NCBI RefSeq assembly: GCF_027625995.1
Contig: NZ_CP115396.1
Span: forward strand, 1,922,001 to 1,986,000
Length of the DNA stretch: 64,000 nucleotides
Direction of reading: 5' to 3'
Origin: Hymenobacter yonginensis
GTDB lineage: Bacteria > Bacteroidota > Bacteroidia > Cytophagales > Hymenobacteraceae
The position numbers and the translations under genes are program-made. Positions within the stretch are counted from its first letter, which is position 1, and every line of letters starts with the position of its first letter. Below the pieces are notes generated by a model, which was not told the origin of the DNA, did no database searches, and saw nothing but the letters and a program-made list of their open reading frames with translations. Below are positions 57,673 through 64,000 of the stretch, piece after piece.

Positions 57673-58614
57673 CTACCGGGCGGTCATGCGCCGGGCCAGG
57701 TCCTCGATATCGGGGCGGCGGGCCAGCACGGCCAGCCACTCGGCCGGAATGGCGGCTTCGCCATAGTACAGGCCGGCCAAACCGCCGGTTACGGCCCCGG
57801 TGGTGTCGGTGTCGTCGCCGAGGTTGACGGCGGCCAGCACGGTTTCGGCAAAGGTTTCGTGGCGGAGCAGGCACCACAGGCTGGCTTCCAGGGTGTGCAT
57901 GACGTAGCCGCCGCTTCGGATCTTCTGCTCCTGAAAATCAGCCAGTTTTCCGGTTAGCAGATAGTCGAACTGCGCTATTTCCGGTTCTGGAACGCGCAAC
58001 TCCCGCAGCTGGGCCGGGGCTTCGGCGCACAGTTGGGCGTAGGCCTCGGCCGGGGCCCGGCCGGCACGCAGGTGGCGGGCCACTTCCAGGTACAGCCAGC
58101 ACGCCACCGCCGAGCGAATATGGCCGTGCGTGACGGCCGAAGCCTCCCGGATCAGCTGAAACCGGGCGGCTGGCTGGGCCTGCTCCTGGTAGAAAGCCAG
58201 CGGCAAAATCCGCATCAGGGCGCCGTTGCCGTTGCTGTATTCGTCGGTGCCACCCGCCAGAATTAGGTCAGGGTCGGCTTTGAGCTTCTGCAGGGCCTCG
58301 CGGGTGGTGATGCCGATGTCGAACACGGAGCCGTGGGGCGTCCAGAAGTTTTTGTAGTACCAGCGGACGCAGTTTTCGGCCAGCTTGCCCACGGTGTAGC
58401 CGTCGGCAATGGCTTCAGCCAAACAGAACGTGAGCGAGGCATCGTCGGACCAGGTGCCGGCGGGCTGGTGGTGGGTGCCGTAGGCGCGCATGTGCACCAC
58501 GGGGTCGTGGCGGCGGGCAGCGCGGCTCTGGAACTCCACGGGCACGCCCAGCGCGTCGCCCACGGCCAGACCCAACAAAGCGGCGCGGAGCTGGGCTTCG
58601 GAGGTATCTATCAT
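57673..58614 (-). CDS. ADP-ribosylglycohydrolase family protein
   Basis: Removes ADP-ribose from proteins or small molecules using a di-metal site; 313 residues. The N-terminal LLGLAVGDALGVPVEF, the metal motif TWSDDASLTFCLAEAI, SNGNGALMRILPLAFY and NLGDDTDTTGAVTGGLAGLYYG are all present and complete. SDD replaces the more frequent TDD in the first metal loop, which keeps both Asp. No ADP-ribosyltransferase or macrodomain gene is nearby. It lies 11 nt downstream of the GH13 gene on the same strand, so it may be co-transcribed with it. Confidence 0.93.
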   Translation of the reverse strand: MIDTSEAQLRAALLGLAVGDALGVPVEFQSRAARRHDPVVHMRAYGTHHQPAGTWSDDASLTFCLAEAIADGYTVGKLAENCVRWYYKNFWTPHGSVFDIGITTREALQKLKADPDLILAGGTDEYSNGNGALMRILPLAFYQEQAQPAARFQLIREASAVTHGHIRSAVACWLYLEVARHLRAGRAPAEAYAQLCAEAPAQLRELRVPEPEIAQFDYLLTGKLADFQEQKIRSGGYVMHTLEASLWCLLRHETFAETVLAAVNLGDDTDTTGAVTGGLAGLYYGEAAIPAEWLAVLARRPDIEDLARRMTAR

Positions 58615-58625
58615 AGAGGTGAAGG

Positions 58626-60509
58626 TTACTTCATCAGCTCCAGCACCAACGCCGTTTTGGCGGGCAGCTGCAGGGTTTTCAGGTCGGAAATGGTTTCGCC
58701 GGTTAGCACGTTGCGGGCTTTGGTGAAGCCGGCCATGCGTTCGGAGAAGCGGGCGGTGGGCAGGCTGGCGGCTTTATCGGTGGTGTTGGAGGCTACCATC
58801 ACGGTGCCGGCGTCGGCGTAGCGGAAGTACACGTACTGGCCGTTTTCGGGCAGGTACTGCATCAGCTGGCCGGAGCTGAGCACCGGGTGGGTGCGGCGGT
58901 AGTTGGCCAGGGTGCTCACAAAGCGGAAGGCGTCGTTTTCGGCCTCGGTGCGGCCGGCGGCCGTGAACTTGTTCTGCTGGTCGCCGGGGAAGCCGCCGGG
59001 GAAGTCGCGGCGCACTTCGGCGTCGGAGGGGTCCTTGAAGTTTTTCATCAGGATTTCCGTGCCGTAGTACATGCTCGGGATGCCGCGGGTGGTCAGCAGC
59101 CAGGTCAGGCCCATCTTGTACTTGGCCACGTCCTCGCCTACTTCCGACAAGAACCGGTTATGGTCGTGGTTGTCGATGAAGGTGACGAGCTTGGTGGGGT
59201 CCTGGTACACGGCGTCCTGGGCCAAGGCCTGGTACACGCGCTGGGCGCCGTTGTCCCAGCCGGTGGCACCCGGCGTACCCACTTCCTTCAGGCCGGCCAG
59301 CATGGCGTTTTCCAGCACGAAATCGAGGCCGCCGGGCTGGTTGGACTTGAAGGGAAAGTCAATCTTGTTGCGCACGTAGTAGGCCTGATCCACGATGCTG
59401 GTCACCGACGATTCTCCGAAAATGTGAATCTTTGGGTACTCCTGCAGCAGCGCCGCGTTGCAGCGGTTCATGAAGGGCTGGTCGTTGTACATGTAGGTGT
59501 CGATGCGCCAGGCATCCACCCCGAAGTTCTCCACCGTCCAGAGGGCGTGCTGGATCAGGAAGTTGGCCACGTAGGGGTTCTGCTGGTTGAGGTCGGGCAG
59601 GAAGGGCACAAACCAGCCGTCGAGGGTCACTCTGCGGTCAATCTGGGCGGCGTGGGGGTCGGTGATGGGCTGCTGGCGGTAGCTGGTGTTGGTGTACGTG
59701 GGCCACTGGTGCAGCCAGCTTTTCATGGGCAAGTCCTGGATAAACCAGTGATTGTTGCCGATGTGGTTGTACACGGCGTCCTGCACCACTTTCAGGCCCA
59801 TGCCGTGGGCTTTCTGCACGAAGGCTTTGTAGGCCGCATTGCCGCCCAGGCGCTTATCCACGGTGTAGTGGTCGGTGAAGCCGTAGCCGTGGTAGGCCGA
59901 GCGTTTGGCCCCGCCTTCGTCGGTGAGGCCCTGGTTGTTTTCGATGACGGGAGTAAACCACACAGCCGTCACGCCCAGCTCCTTCAGGTAATCGAGGTGC
60001 TGGCTGGCCCCTTGCAGGTCGCCGCCGTGGCGCAGGAAGGGCTGGGCGCGGTCGGAGCTGGGGTCGGCCATATCGGCAAACTTGTCGTTCGAGGGGTCAC
60101 CGTTGGCAAACCGGTCGGGCATGGCCAGGTAGATGAAGTCGGCCTGCGTTACGCCCTGGGCTTTCACGGCGTTGTCGCGAGCCTTAAGCTCCCAGTTCTG
60201 GGTTACGGTTTTCGCGCCCTTCTTGCCCACCAGCGCCACCTGCCCGGGTTTGGCCGTGGGCGCAATGATGAGGTCGAGGAAGGCGTAGTTGGGGTTCTCG
60301 ACGGTGTTGGTTTTCACCAGCTTCACGCCGGGGTAGTTCACGGTGTAGGTGAGCGTGCCGGCCTGGGGGCCGTACACCAGCACCTGCACGGTGTTGTGCT
60401 TCATGCCCACCCACCAGTTAGTAGGGTTCAGGCGGGTGATGGACTGGGCCGCGGCGCCCAGCGGCAGCAAAGAAGCCGCCAGCAGCAGCGTATAGAGCGT
60501 TTTTTTCAT
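58626..60509 (-). CDS. GH13 cyclomaltodextrinase/neopullulanase, SusA-like
   Basis: Periplasmic enzyme that cuts maltodextrins, cyclodextrins or pullulan; 627 residues. Signal peptide MKKTLYTLLLAASLLPLGAAAQ. An N-terminal Ig-like cyclomaltodextrinase domain (LNPTNWWVGMKHNTVQVLVYG) is followed by the barrel with FIYLAMPDRFANGDPSND, DAVYNHIG, VDAWRIDTYMYND (nucleophile Asp), HIFGESSVTS (acid/base Glu) and FIDNHDHNRFLSEV (third Asp). The C-terminal beta domain ends with ALVLELMK. It matches SusA of starch utilisation systems, though susC and susD are not in the window. The GH97 and the other GH13 are 4-8 kb away on the opposite strand. Confidence 0.95.
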   Translation of the reverse strand: MKKTLYTLLLAASLLPLGAAAQSITRLNPTNWWVGMKHNTVQVLVYGPQAGTLTYTVNYPGVKLVKTNTVENPNYAFLDLIIAPTAKPGQVALVGKKGAKTVTQNWELKARDNAVKAQGVTQADFIYLAMPDRFANGDPSNDKFADMADPSSDRAQPFLRHGGDLQGASQHLDYLKELGVTAVWFTPVIENNQGLTDEGGAKRSAYHGYGFTDHYTVDKRLGGNAAYKAFVQKAHGMGLKVVQDAVYNHIGNNHWFIQDLPMKSWLHQWPTYTNTSYRQQPITDPHAAQIDRRVTLDGWFVPFLPDLNQQNPYVANFLIQHALWTVENFGVDAWRIDTYMYNDQPFMNRCNAALLQEYPKIHIFGESSVTSIVDQAYYVRNKIDFPFKSNQPGGLDFVLENAMLAGLKEVGTPGATGWDNGAQRVYQALAQDAVYQDPTKLVTFIDNHDHNRFLSEVGEDVAKYKMGLTWLLTTRGIPSMYYGTEILMKNFKDPSDAEVRRDFPGGFPGDQQNKFTAAGRTEAENDAFRFVSTLANYRRTHPVLSSGQLMQYLPENGQYVYFRYADAGTVMVASNTTDKAASLPTARFSERMAGFTKARNVLTGETISDLKTLQLPAKTALVLELMK

Positions 60510-60642
60510 GGGAATAGTGCGTGAGAAACCAGGCAACGGCGTTAGCAGGCCGGAAGTTATTGGTTTCGGCGGGTACGCCCACCGGCCCGGCAGCTTTTCG
60601 GAGCCGTCGGACCAGTCGTTGCCAGGACGTATGCACCGATTG

Positions 60643-60779
60643 GTAGAACGGCATAGAGACGCAATATTTTGCGTCTCATCGTTGAACGACCGATGCCGCG
60701 TCGACCCACCCACAACTGCGCAGCCTAAACAACATCAGCAACGACGAGACTCCAACTATTGCGTCTCTACACCGTTCTA
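60643..60779. repeat. Family A palindrome, copy 4
   Basis: Arms TAGAACGGCATAGAGACGC (from 60643) and GCGTCTCTACACCGTTCTA (to 60779) pair well. The right arm has an altered core (GACTCCAACTATTG) against the usual GACGCAAAATATTG. It lies between the GH13 gene and the stop of the macroglobulin-like gene. Confidence 0.75.
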
Positions 60780-60789
60780 TATTCGTCCG

Positions 60790-63700
60790 CTACTCCACCA
60801 CCGTTTGCTTGCTGGCCGAGCGGCCGAACCGGGTGGGGAAGTACATCAGCTCGGCTTTGGCGGGGTTGAGGGTGTAGCGGCCGCGGTAGCGCGGCTGCAG
60901 CGCCAACCGGAACGTGTGGCGCCCAACGGGCAGCACGTCGATGAAGATGCCGACTTGGTGGCGCAGGTATTCGCGGTGCACCTCGAACGAGTTACCGGGC
61001 GCTTTTTCGCCGTAGGAGCAGCCGGCCGGGATGGGCACTTCCAGCAGCACGTAGTGGGCTTCGGCCTTCACGTCCACGGTCACGAGCAGCTCGGCGGGCT
61101 GGCCGGCCTTCAGCAGCACGCGGCTGCCCTCCTGCCCGGCCAGCGCGGTGCGCACCCCAAACGGCGCGGCCACCGCCACCGGCGCGGCATTCCAAAACGA
61201 CTGATACGCCGTGGCATACACCGGCAGGCCGCCTTCCTTGCGCAGCACCAGCGGCCCGGCCCCGGCCGCCACGATGGTGTCGAACGGAAATTTGCTTACC
61301 TGCTGGCTGAGCGCGCCGCTAAATTGGGCGCGGGCCATCAGGCCCTGAGAACCAGCCACCAGCAGGTCGGGCACAATAGTTTCCAGAATGAGGGCGGCCT
61401 CGTAGGTGCTGCCCCAGTGGCTGGCGCTGCGGCGCTGCTGCAGCAGGTAGGTCCGGATGCGGGTCAGCTCGGCTTCCTGGCCACCGCGGGCGCGCAGCAG
61501 GCGGTAGGCCAGCAGCGTGTTGGCGGTGCGGTCGGGCAGCAGGTAGCGGTAAAACGCGCCGTCGCGCAGCGTATCGGCATAGAACACGCCGCCGAGCTCA
61601 GTGCGCAAACGGTAGCGGCGCAGCGTGTCCAGCTGAAACGGCAGCCCCAGCTGCTGGCGCAGGTTGGCCAGGGCCAAGTACCGGTCGAGGGGCTGGCGGA
61701 CCTTTTTGCCCGCCGGGGTTTCGCGCTCCAGGCGCAGCACGTAGGTGCGGAAATCGGGCTGGGCACCGAGGCGGTGCAGCAGCTGCAGCAGCCGGATCCG
61801 GTCGTCGTCGGATTGGAAATACAAGGCCTCGTAGCGCTGACCGGTGGGCGTGGCGGCCAGCGCAGCGCGGGCGGCGGCATCGGCAAAGGCCACATCCAGC
61901 TGCCGCAGCAGGTAGCTGCGCAGCGCGTCCCGGTCGAGCTTCACGGCGTAGCCCTGCTGGGTGGCTTCCAGCAGCGCTTCCACCACGTGCAGCGTGGCCC
62001 AGGGGCTGACGGCCGCGCCGGGCCAGGTGCCCCACAGGCCTTCGGGCTGGTGGCGCCCGCGCAGCAGGTGCCGGATCAGGCGGTTCACGTCCTTCTCGCC
62101 CTCAAACGGCTGCTTGAGCTGCTCGCGGATGCGCTGCTCCAGCAGCAGGGTTTTCAGCTTGGAGGCGGCCTGCTCGTTGCAGAGGTAGGCGTAGCGCTGC
62201 ACGTGCCGGATTTCATCCAGCAGCGTGGGCAGCGGGTCGCTTTCCAGGCGCACCGTCACGGGTCCCAGCTCGGGGCGGATGGGCAGCGTGAGGGTAGTAT
62301 CGGTGGCGGTGAGCACGGCGAAGGTGCCCACCCGCTCGCGGGTGCCGGCCGGCAGCACCGGCAGGTAGCGCAGCTCGCCGTCCTGGTAGCCATTGGGCTG
62401 GGTGAGCTGGAAGCTGACCGCCACCGAATCGGGGCCGCCGCTGGGGGCCGTGAGGGTGAGCGTGTCGAGGGCGGCGGTGGCTACCTGGTGGCGCTGGCTG
62501 CGGGCCGGCCCCTCGCCCACCCGGAAGCTGGTCGTGACCTGGGCCGTGTCGGGCAGGTAGTTGAGGGTTTTGCCGAGCAGCTGCGCCCGGTCGCCTTCGA
62601 TGAGGAAGCGCGGCGCGGCCAGCTCGCCCAGCACGGCCTTGAAGGAGCGCATCAGGGCCGTGAAGCTGCCGGTGCGGGCGTGGTCGTCGGAGGCCAGCAC
62701 GAAGGTGTCCCAGCCGGTGATGTCGTCGGGCACGATGACTTCGGTGCTGGCCCGGCCCTGGGCATCGGTGACGAGCGAGGGCCGCCACCAGCCGGAATCC
62801 GAGAAGCGGCGACGCAGCGAGAGGCGCGGGTCGCGGCTGGCGGTGGGCTGGCCGTCGGGGCCGATGGCCGGGGCCGGATCGGCGTCGAAGCCCAGCGCCC
62901 TGCGGCCGCCGACGCCGGATTTGGTGGTTATGATGATGACGCCGTTGGCGGCGCGCGAGCCAAACGTAGCAGCCGCGGCGGCCCCTTTCAGCACCTTCAT
63001 CCCCGCAATATCGTCGGGGTTGATATCGGCTTGGTTGCCCGAAAACGGCAGCCCGTCCACAATCAGCAGCGGCAACCCGCTCCCGCTGAGCGTGCTGCTC
63101 CCGCGGATCTGCACGCCCGCCACCCGGCCCGGCTGGCCGTCAATAGAAACACCCGCCACCCGGCCCGACAGTGAGGCGCTGGTGATGGTGGAAACCGAAG
63201 CCGACAGGTTGCGGCGGCGCTGCTCCACTCCGAAGCCTACCACTACCACTTCATCCAGATGCTTGCTGTCAGCGACCATTCCCACCAGCATATCGCGCCC
63301 ATCCAGCCGGTACTCCATGGTCACAAAGCCGACATAGGAAAGTTGCAGCAGGCCGCCGTCCGGCGGCACGCTCAGCTCGAAGCTGCCGTCGGCGTTGGTG
63401 CTGACACCGATAGTAGTGCCTTTGAGCAGCACCGTGACGCCGGGCAGGCCTTCGCCGGTTTGCTTGTCTTCGATGCGGCCGCGCTGTACGCGCCAGCCTG
63501 GTTGCGGCACCACGGGCACCGTTACCTGTACTTCGCGGCGCTCCTCGCGGGGCTGAGTGGTAGCATTTGGGCGGGGCAGCCGCTCCTGCACCAACTGCCG
63601 GAAGCGGCGGCGCAGCGCCCGCGCTGCCGGGCCGGCCGGAAGCACGTCCGCGGAATCCAGCTGCACGTAGGTGGCGCCGTTGGGCTGCACGCTGACTTCC

Positions 63701-64000
63701 GGGGCCGGGGCCAGCACGGTGCTGTCGGCCAGCAGCAGGGCCAGGCGGTAGCGGCCGGTGGGCAGCGCGTGGATGGTCTGGGGCAGGCCGCGCTCCAGCC
63801 GCACGAATTTGGGGTTGCCGGGCTGGGTGAGCAGCGTGTAGAGTACCGGCGGCAGCGTGGCAGGCTGGCGCCGGGCCGCATTGGCGGCGGGTGGCACCGG
63901 CAGGCGCACGGTTAGGCGCCCCTGCCCGGCGGGCGTGGTTACAGGGTTGTGCAGCTCCGGCTCGGGGCTGTAGCTGCTGCGGTAGTAGCCGGTGGCGGGC
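60790..64000 (-). CDS. Alpha-2-macroglobulin-like protein with inserted regulatory and TonB plug domains (runs off right edge)
   Basis: 1070 residues are visible and the frame is open through base 64000, so the N-terminus (signal peptide and first MG domains) is missing. In order from the right edge: MG-like strands; a carboxypeptidase-regulatory-like domain (63265-63492; TGEGLPGVTVLLKGTTIGV, SYVGF); a SusC-type TonB plug (62911-63261; DEVVVVGFG, QIRGSSTLSGSG, LLIVDGLPF, FGSRAANGVIIITTKSG); the A2M domain (SGWWRPSLVTDAQGRAS, IVPDDITGWDTFVLASD); and a thioester domain with YLCNEQAASKL (CNEQ at 62170-62181), complement-like helices, and a C-terminal receptor-binding-like domain. No beta-barrel follows the plug. 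A cell-surface role in trapping proteases or binding partners is inferred. Confidence 0.88.
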   Translation of the reverse strand, partial: PATGYYRSSYSPEPELHNPVTTPAGQGRLTVRLPVPPAANAARRQPATLPPVLYTLLTQPGNPKFVRLERGLPQTIHALPTGRYRLALLLADSTVLAPAPEVSVQPNGATYVQLDSADVLPAGPAARALRRRFRQLVQERLPRPNATTQPREERREVQVTVPVVPQPGWRVQRGRIEDKQTGEGLPGVTVLLKGTTIGVSTNADGSFELSVPPDGGLLQLSYVGFVTMEYRLDGRDMLVGMVADSKHLDEVVVVGFGVEQRRRNLSASVSTITSASLSGRVAGVSIDGQPGRVAGVQIRGSSTLSGSGLPLLIVDGLPFSGNQADINPDDIAGMKVLKGAAAAATFGSRAANGVIIITTKSGVGGRRALGFDADPAPAIGPDGQPTASRDPRLSLRRRFSDSGWWRPSLVTDAQGRASTEVIVPDDITGWDTFVLASDDHARTGSFTALMRSFKAVLGELAAPRFLIEGDRAQLLGKTLNYLPDTAQVTTSFRVGEGPARSQRHQVATAALDTLTLTAPSGGPDSVAVSFQLTQPNGYQDGELRYLPVLPAGTRERVGTFAVLTATDTTLTLPIRPELGPVTVRLESDPLPTLLDEIRHVQRYAYLCNEQAASKLKTLLLEQRIREQLKQPFEGEKDVNRLIRHLLRGRHQPEGLWGTWPGAAVSPWATLHVVEALLEATQQGYAVKLDRDALRSYLLRQLDVAFADAAARAALAATPTGQRYEALYFQSDDDRIRLLQLLHRLGAQPDFRTYVLRLERETPAGKKVRQPLDRYLALANLRQQLGLPFQLDTLRRYRLRTELGGVFYADTLRDGAFYRYLLPDRTANTLLAYRLLRARGGQEAELTRIRTYLLQQRRSASHWGSTYEAALILETIVPDLLVAGSQGLMARAQFSGALSQQVSKFPFDTIVAAGAGPLVLRKEGGLPVYATAYQSFWNAAPVAVAAPFGVRTALAGQEGSRVLLKAGQPAELLVTVDVKAEAHYVLLEVPIPAGCSYGEKAPGNSFEVHREYLRHQVGIFIDVLPVGRHTFRLALQPRYRGRYTLNPAKAELMYFPTRFGRSASKQTVVE

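Follow-up and report, generated by a model that had tools for sequence, protein, structure and literature searches.

The alpha-2-macroglobulins (A2Ms) described from Escherichia coli (ECAM), Salmonella and human have in common an A2M domain, a CxEQ thioester domain flanked by tyrosines, a bMG10 domain with an EXMY motif, the role of which is described in PMC4498604, and an RxxF motif after the bait position. ECAM is presented as a periplasmic protein that is anchored in the inner membrane and has a disordered bait (PMC4498604). Behind its bait, human A2M has the alpha'NT segment, in which R732 and F735 are conserved and which passes through a channel, the emptying of which is held to trigger the trap, and in the complement proteins C3, C4 and C5 a folded anaphylatoxin domain precedes alpha'NT (PMC9352918). 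As for the SusC/RagA transporters, namely Bt1763 and RagA, they are characterised by an N-terminal extension (NTE), a TonB box and a plug, in this order, and by a 22-strand barrel. The protein considered here is encoded at the right end of a 64,000-nucleotide stretch of the Hymenobacter yonginensis genome (NZ_CP115396.1, positions 1,922,001 to 1,986,000; hereafter the window) and shares the above features of the three A2Ms as well as, within an insert, the NTE, TonB box and plug of the transporters. It thereby links two systems that are unconnected in the literature searched, i.e. open-licence full texts, in which spelling variants, subscription papers and preprints may be missed: none of the papers listed there, one of them on the zinc transporter ZnuD, joins the A2M trap to TonB-dependent import and, as anticipated by the earlier note on this DNA, which was made from the letters alone, no characterised counterpart was found.

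The gene and its SusC-type insert

The frame lies on the minus strand at 60790-63999, with its stop at 60790, and stays open over 1069 aa up to the right edge of the window; judged from its sequence, it is the C-terminal half of a predicted exported A2M of about 2050 aa. What lies beyond the edge, the recovery of which the earlier note had called for, can be read from the orthologues: the gene is full length in 13 Hymenobacter species, Flexithrix dorotheae, Dawidia soli and one Bacteroidetes metagenome-assembled genome, with 1935-2072 aa from the chosen start codon, and close orthologues have some 980-990 more residues N-terminal to the window's edge, plus a signal peptide. By eye, a signal peptide is present in the orthologues and a lipobox is absent, in contrast to the membrane-anchored ECAM, and a periplasmic location would follow. 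The closest relative, from Hymenobacter sp. BT190, shows 92-93% identity. An assembly chimera, the doubt that the same note had raised against itself, is ruled out by the same layout aligned in 16 other assemblies, and a stand-alone SusC fragment is ruled out by the single open frame, which runs into the A2M without a stop; the gene is a single and real one.

Matches above the Pfam cut-offs were obtained for CarbopepD_reg_2 (aa 173-253, 1.6e-14), Plug (aa 275-354, 1.4e-10), A2M (aa 405-490, 8.7e-11, 42 bits for a cut-off of 21) and bMG10 (aa 962-1055, 1.5e-12), and above the NCBIfam cut-off for the SusC signature TIGR04057 (aa 330-360). Among the sequences of the PDB, aa 172-367 resemble RagA (1e-29) and aa 390-492 human A2M (2.1e-6), the matching query residues numbering 196 for RagA and 204 for the SusC homologue of the Bt1763 entries. 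The NTE and a shortened plug are thus recognised by Pfam, NCBIfam, PDB sequences and a hidden Markov model (HMM) of SusC alike. Unlike in SusC/RagA, no 22-strand barrel is seen, the whole-SusC model TIGR04056 covering only its positions 4-210 of 981, below cut-off, and the frame continuing into the A2M instead. The CNEQ of the thioester site (aa 607-610) is invariant across a first alignment of 17 sequences, its C, E and Q each being found in 36/36 members of a larger one, and in the EXMY motif of bMG10 the Y is kept in 36/36, the E in 34/36 and the M in 29/36 of the latter. In other words, the carboxypeptidase-regulatory-like domain and plug directly upstream of the A2M domain, the thioester-type CNEQ and the lack of a barrel, all read by the earlier note, are borne out. 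The N-terminal macroglobulin (MG) ring is weakly recognised, with MG2 below the Pfam cut-off in four full-length relatives (L014, 5.2e-5; L015, 1.9e-4; L016, 0.029; L001, 0.47). Pfam Plug is found in two of them (L001 and L015) and not at E<=1 in L014 and L016, where the plug is more degenerate and still detected by the SusC-built HMM. Of note, the Flexithrix orthologue (L014:6317-12496) has, upstream of the main module, a second carboxypeptidase-type domain in two stretches, then a TonB-box-like LKEISIVGYATRRKANMTASI.

Between NTE and plug stands a putative TonB box, LDEVVVVGFG (aa 248-257), absent from the earlier note and recognised by its sequence and place: in Bt1763, the box, VDEVVV, is placed likewise, behind an NTE that belongs to the same Pfam family (PMC7782687). 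In the 36 aligned members, which came from queries containing the plug, its E and second V are kept in 36/36 and the G after the box in 34/36; the ten-mer ranks 24 among 2037 overlapping windows, level with PDDITGWDTF of the A2M domain. Columns with at least 90% identity make up 60% of the TonB box, 75% of the thioester site, 17% of the NTE, 15% of the plug and 0% of the linker behind it, so that the box is second only to the thioester site in constancy among the segments compared, and three of the 14 best-conserved non-overlapping ten-mers fall within the insert. In Bt1763, deleting the box or replacing it by alanine made strains grow on levan like a SusD deletion, and the nuclear magnetic resonance (NMR) structure of a SusC NTE has the TonB-box stretch as flexible (PMC7782687); a stretch constant although flexible points to binding.

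Regarding the plug, the SusC HMM finds it in 36/36 aligned inserts (worst E 3.3e-9) as opposed to 1/108 control segments; this HMM was built from 15 SusCs, 8 of 23 SusC loci being skipped, and one of the 15 (L271, with an odd start) was omitted from the tree and length counts. From the E of the TonB box to the R of IRG, 14/14 SusCs have 63-64 residues and 36/36 A2Ms 30-60 (median 44.5), L092 being hardly trimmed at 60; IRG to YGSRA takes 45-49 residues in A2Ms vs. 47-61 (median 47) in SusCs, and YGSRA to TTK 14 in all of both. In all 36 aligned A2Ms, the plug is trimmed in the half that follows the TonB box, the other half being at SusC length, for which reason the plug can no longer be called complete, as it was at first. 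In BtuB, pulling by TonB is described to unfold a stretch of about 50 residues directly behind the Ton box (PMC5413942); the half trimmed in the A2M plugs would be that very half, which counts for a docking to TonB. In addition, a shortened plug would make a poor cork for a barrel, and, with a TonB box present, TonB is the more likely docking partner than a SusCD barrel. In a tree of inserts and SusCs, which long branches make unsafe and from which no number of origins was drawn, the inserts fail to come together in a single clean group (6 changes of A2M label, at least 2 of them forced by starred branches), the Hymenobacter inserts clustering without SusCs among them.

The insert is followed by a variable linker of 20-40 residues, from the TTK lysine to the R of RxxF, with 0/32 columns at 90% identity over the 36 sequences, and then by R-x-x-F, the R and F of which are present in 36/36 aligned members and the pattern in 46/46 loci of the plug-blind set presented below. 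Relatives have at the same spot, by eye, a disordered or otherwise different segment. The sequence thus supports an insert located at the position of the bait in A2Ms and of the anaphylatoxin domain in complement proteins, and to this extent the bait-region position asserted by the earlier note stands. The likeness with complement lies in a folded domain placed before alpha'NT, a domain that we take to be unrelated to the plug; unlike in complement, a cut in the linker would leave the module on the N-terminal chain. When profiles were compared with plain A2Ms, the alignment for 2/4 groups began only at alpha'NT, with MG6 alpha unlocated. A first structure model (1069 aa, 17 sequences) reached a mean pLDDT of 60.6, mostly 70-90 in the NTE and thioester domain and mostly below 50 in the plug and A2M domain, and a second one (aa 173-500) a mean of 52.1. 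Foldseek listed SusC NTEs and carboxypeptidase domains first, with the NMR SusC NTE 6ytc on top; whole-SusC entries, ranging from 8a9y (E 9e-4, root-mean-square deviation 21.5) to 6z9a (E 0.033, 88 columns, deviation 3.4, 52% identity), stand among unrelated weaker matches.

The ratio of nonsynonymous to synonymous substitution rates (dN/dS), taken over nine Hymenobacter gene pairs, is 0.13 in both the TonB box, which has just 15 codons, and MG6b-CUB, 0.16 in the thioester domain, 0.22 in the plug, 0.25 in the N-terminal MG part and 0.26 in the NTE; the linker, at 0.36, has the highest value of nine segments tested. Purifying selection acts on the insert, about as strongly as on the N-terminal MG part.

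Distribution among A2M families

With the C-terminal half as query, i.e. blind to the plug, 53 of the 241 genomes of the order match at a threshold of 1e-20; 46 of these provided one locus each, and the other seven have fragments or weak matches. A SusC-type plug is found in 36/46 loci at E<=1e-8 and in 40/46 at E<=0.01. Among the ten loci below 1e-8, L308 and L309 keep part of the module, L309 being on a short contig (181 aa); L310-L315 keep the NTE, a changed TonB box and a remnant, the second plug half being lost; and L304:2-2101 and L316:1-2100 have a barrel-like segment at the bait position in place of NTE and plug, identified in L304 as DUF6089 by Pfam (2.2e-8) and in L316 by eye only. 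Since plugs, the DUF6089 barrel and the other barrel-like segment are all found there, the bait site repeatedly hosts outer-membrane parts.

At the level of the class, 35 of 395 genomes match at a threshold of 1e-40, and 28 of the 33 lying outside the order set were examined: a CarboxypepD_reg match is present in 25 of these 28 loci, Pfam Plug at E<=0.01 in 10 and a SusC HMM match in 7. By eye, the plug of some of these relatives is of another type, which carries RGARxxATxYYIDG and is presumably to be named Oar-type. Among the loci gathered, L172 was not used (wrong reading frame), and the stretches of L137 and L147 were off centre in one comparison.

Besides, the insert is not unique to the window protein and recurs in other A2M families. 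A type II family (CFEQ, about 1500 aa) occurs in 42/241 genomes, and in loci of the 30 examined by HMM a SusC-type plug is found at the bait site in 9/30 at E<=0.01 and 6/30 at 1e-16, the downstream halves giving no SusC HMM plug (0/30); four of the 21 plug-less loci were viewed by eye, and the segment at that site looks disordered in them. The type II loci L041:3925-8535, L272, L273, L275 and L279 have a SusC-type plug that is complete or nearly so. In a 'long' family, present in 112/247 class genomes, the SusC HMM matches 3/79 baits at E<=0.01 and 7/79 (6/78 distinct, L161 and L181 being the same gene) at E<=1, the controls at E<=1 giving 1/1580 shuffles, 0/79 reversed baits and 0/79 upstream segments; 7/86 'long' loci gave no extractable bait. 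Hand-made motif patterns had been chosen after looking at these baits, and the HMM with its shuffled and reversed controls was relied on instead. Pfam finds CarbopepD_reg_2 in 3/78 'long' baits and Plug in 0/78, hence the signal there is short and occasional. Scattered TonB boxes (LNEVVVVGYG, LKEVVVVGYG, MNEVVVTGMG, LNEVVVTGN) or, by eye, RGARxDxTxYxxDG pieces were observed in the otherwise disordered 'long' baits L243, L248, L251, L177, L241, L215 and L218, L251 having, by eye, an NTE-like domain and TonB box without plug.

A trap tied to outer-membrane import?

The reading preferred here, tentatively and with less than even confidence, is that of an exported periplasmic thioester A2M, the bait of which was rebuilt from SusC N-terminal modules and which docks to TonB and outer-membrane import. 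NTE and TonB box would most likely dock the trap to TonB, hence to the sites of outer-membrane import, the retained plug half could serve as a folded spacer that bears force, and a protease would cut the short variable linker that follows it. Once the linker is cut, the alpha'NT strand would retract from its channel and the CNEQ thioester be exposed, which would fix the intruding protease at its place of entry. That the plug-A2M combination is widely kept in the order, and occurs in more than one A2M family, suggests a trap wired to the import machinery. A TonB box in a protein devoid of barrel would widen the range of TonB targets and, on the practical side, plug-based annotation could mislabel such A2Ms as transporters.

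Several results weigh against this docking. The origin of the 36 aligned members biases the constancy of their TonB box; in the plug-blind set, the strict box is found in 35/46 loci, being changed in L310-L315 (e.g. ESVVVTSYG, ESVVVASYS, SEVVVVSNS), unrecognised in L306 and L307 despite a plug, missing from L304 and L316, which have the barrels, and, in the truncated L309, either lost or cut off. Regarding the bait position, the two RxxF motifs are offset by one residue in the pairwise alignment with human A2M, and the models are of too low a quality to locate the insert within the MG ring, so that this part of the initial claim is weakened. Plugs in type II copies (63, 63 and 58 residues) and in the class-level L128 (64) are full or little shortened, thus trimming is not needed at the bait site; 18/28 class-level relatives are without Pfam Plug and most 'long' baits without transporter signal by the SusC HMM; and NTE and plug do not fall below the N-terminal MG part in dN/dS. 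Pfam scans of ten neighbours in six loci (L001, L009, L012, L014, L015 and L016) show none that is common beyond Hymenobacter and no link to TonB or SusD, which for SusD also differs from SusC/RagA. Finally, the other plug type and the barrel at the bait site favour an outer-membrane link in general over the TonB step specifically.

The best placed of the alternatives, unlikely as it is, holds that the bait merely accepts foreign folds, for which the abundant SusC-type genes are the usual donors (55, 135 and 134 plug matches in three genomes searched), and that the module has little function of its own. The incomplete record of the TonB box in the plug-blind set and the RxxF register raised its standing and lowered that of docking, and the patchy presence in the type II and 'long' families, the relatives with mere remnants and an NTE and plug no more constrained than the N-terminal MG part all agree with it; it accounts poorly for the purifying selection on NTE, TonB box and plug, for the share of the insert among the best-conserved ten-mers and for the clear plug in 36 of the plug-blind loci.

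Also unlikely is an integrated decoy, whereby the bait would mimic the periplasmic face of the transporters, and proteases attacking those proteins would cut it and get trapped. Bait regions are protease targets by definition, and one and the same trigger site holds SusC-type plugs, RGARxDATxYxIDG-type plugs (by eye), TonB boxes and, in one locus, a DUF6089 barrel. The slowest evolution in the insert is that of the TonB box and the fastest that of the linker, the reverse of what a decoy would lead one to expect, and we know of no protease that targets plugs or TonB boxes.

A force-gated A2M, in which TonB pulling on the box would unseat alpha'NT and arm the thioester without any cut, is a rather improbable variant. 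The half that TonB would unfold being trimmed, force would reach alpha'NT and not be spent on unfolding. Were it true, import activity, or an import event that has stalled, would arm the trap, and in several Bacteroidia A2M families the trigger would have become tied to the machinery of outer-membrane import. Whichever reading applies, the protein offers a natural test for A2M triggering by something other than a cut, a question named as open in PMC9352918. The poorest alternative is a spare cork, whereby the plug would enter a SusC barrel lacking its own and hold the trap at the pore: SusC plugs can exit the barrel in vitro (PMC7782687) and the retained half is at SusC length, yet with the other half shortened throughout the aligned members and the second plug half missing from 6/46 plug-blind loci it is very improbable.

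Coordinates and neighbouring genes

Table 1. Features of the A2M gene, all on the minus strand, with window positions and amino acids of the 1069-aa frame.
Feature	Window position	Strand	Basis or remark
A2M-family gene, C-terminal 1069 codons and stop	60790..63999	-	5' half past the right edge
NTE-like carboxypeptidase-D-regulatory domain, aa 173-253	63241..63483	-	Pfam PF13715; Foldseek top match of model 6ytc
Putative TonB box LDEVVVVGFG, aa 248-257	63229..63258	-	Overlaps end of Pfam NTE match; likeness to Bt1763
Shortened SusC-type plug, aa 258-362, ending GSRAANGVIIITTKSG	62914..63228	-	Pfam Plug, TIGR04057, SusC HMM, lengths
Variable linker, aa 363-393, candidate cleavable bait	62821..62913	-	Column identity, dN/dS
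alpha'NT-like motif SLRRRFSD, aa 394-401, R396 and F399 invariant	62797..62820	-	Alignment; cf. PMC9352918 for human A2M, register one residue off
A2M domain PF00207, aa 405-490	62530..62787	-	Pfam; alignment to human A2M
Thioester domain, about aa 588-885	61345..62238	-	
Thioester site YAYLCNEQ, aa 603-610	62170..62193	-	C, E and Q in 36/36
bMG10 domain, aa 962-1055, EXMY motif ELMY at aa 1050-1053	60835..61116	-	Pfam and alignment

An antisense frame of 888 codons (window 60508-63174, plus strand) overlaps the A2M gene and is most likely spurious. In L001, the A2M gene is followed by a gene for a cyclomaltodextrinase-like amylase, in L009 and L012 by one for an ADP-ribosylglycohydrolase; downstream in the window itself, two frames resemble, by eye, an amylase (58626-60713) and possibly an ADP-ribosylglycohydrolase (57673-58614).

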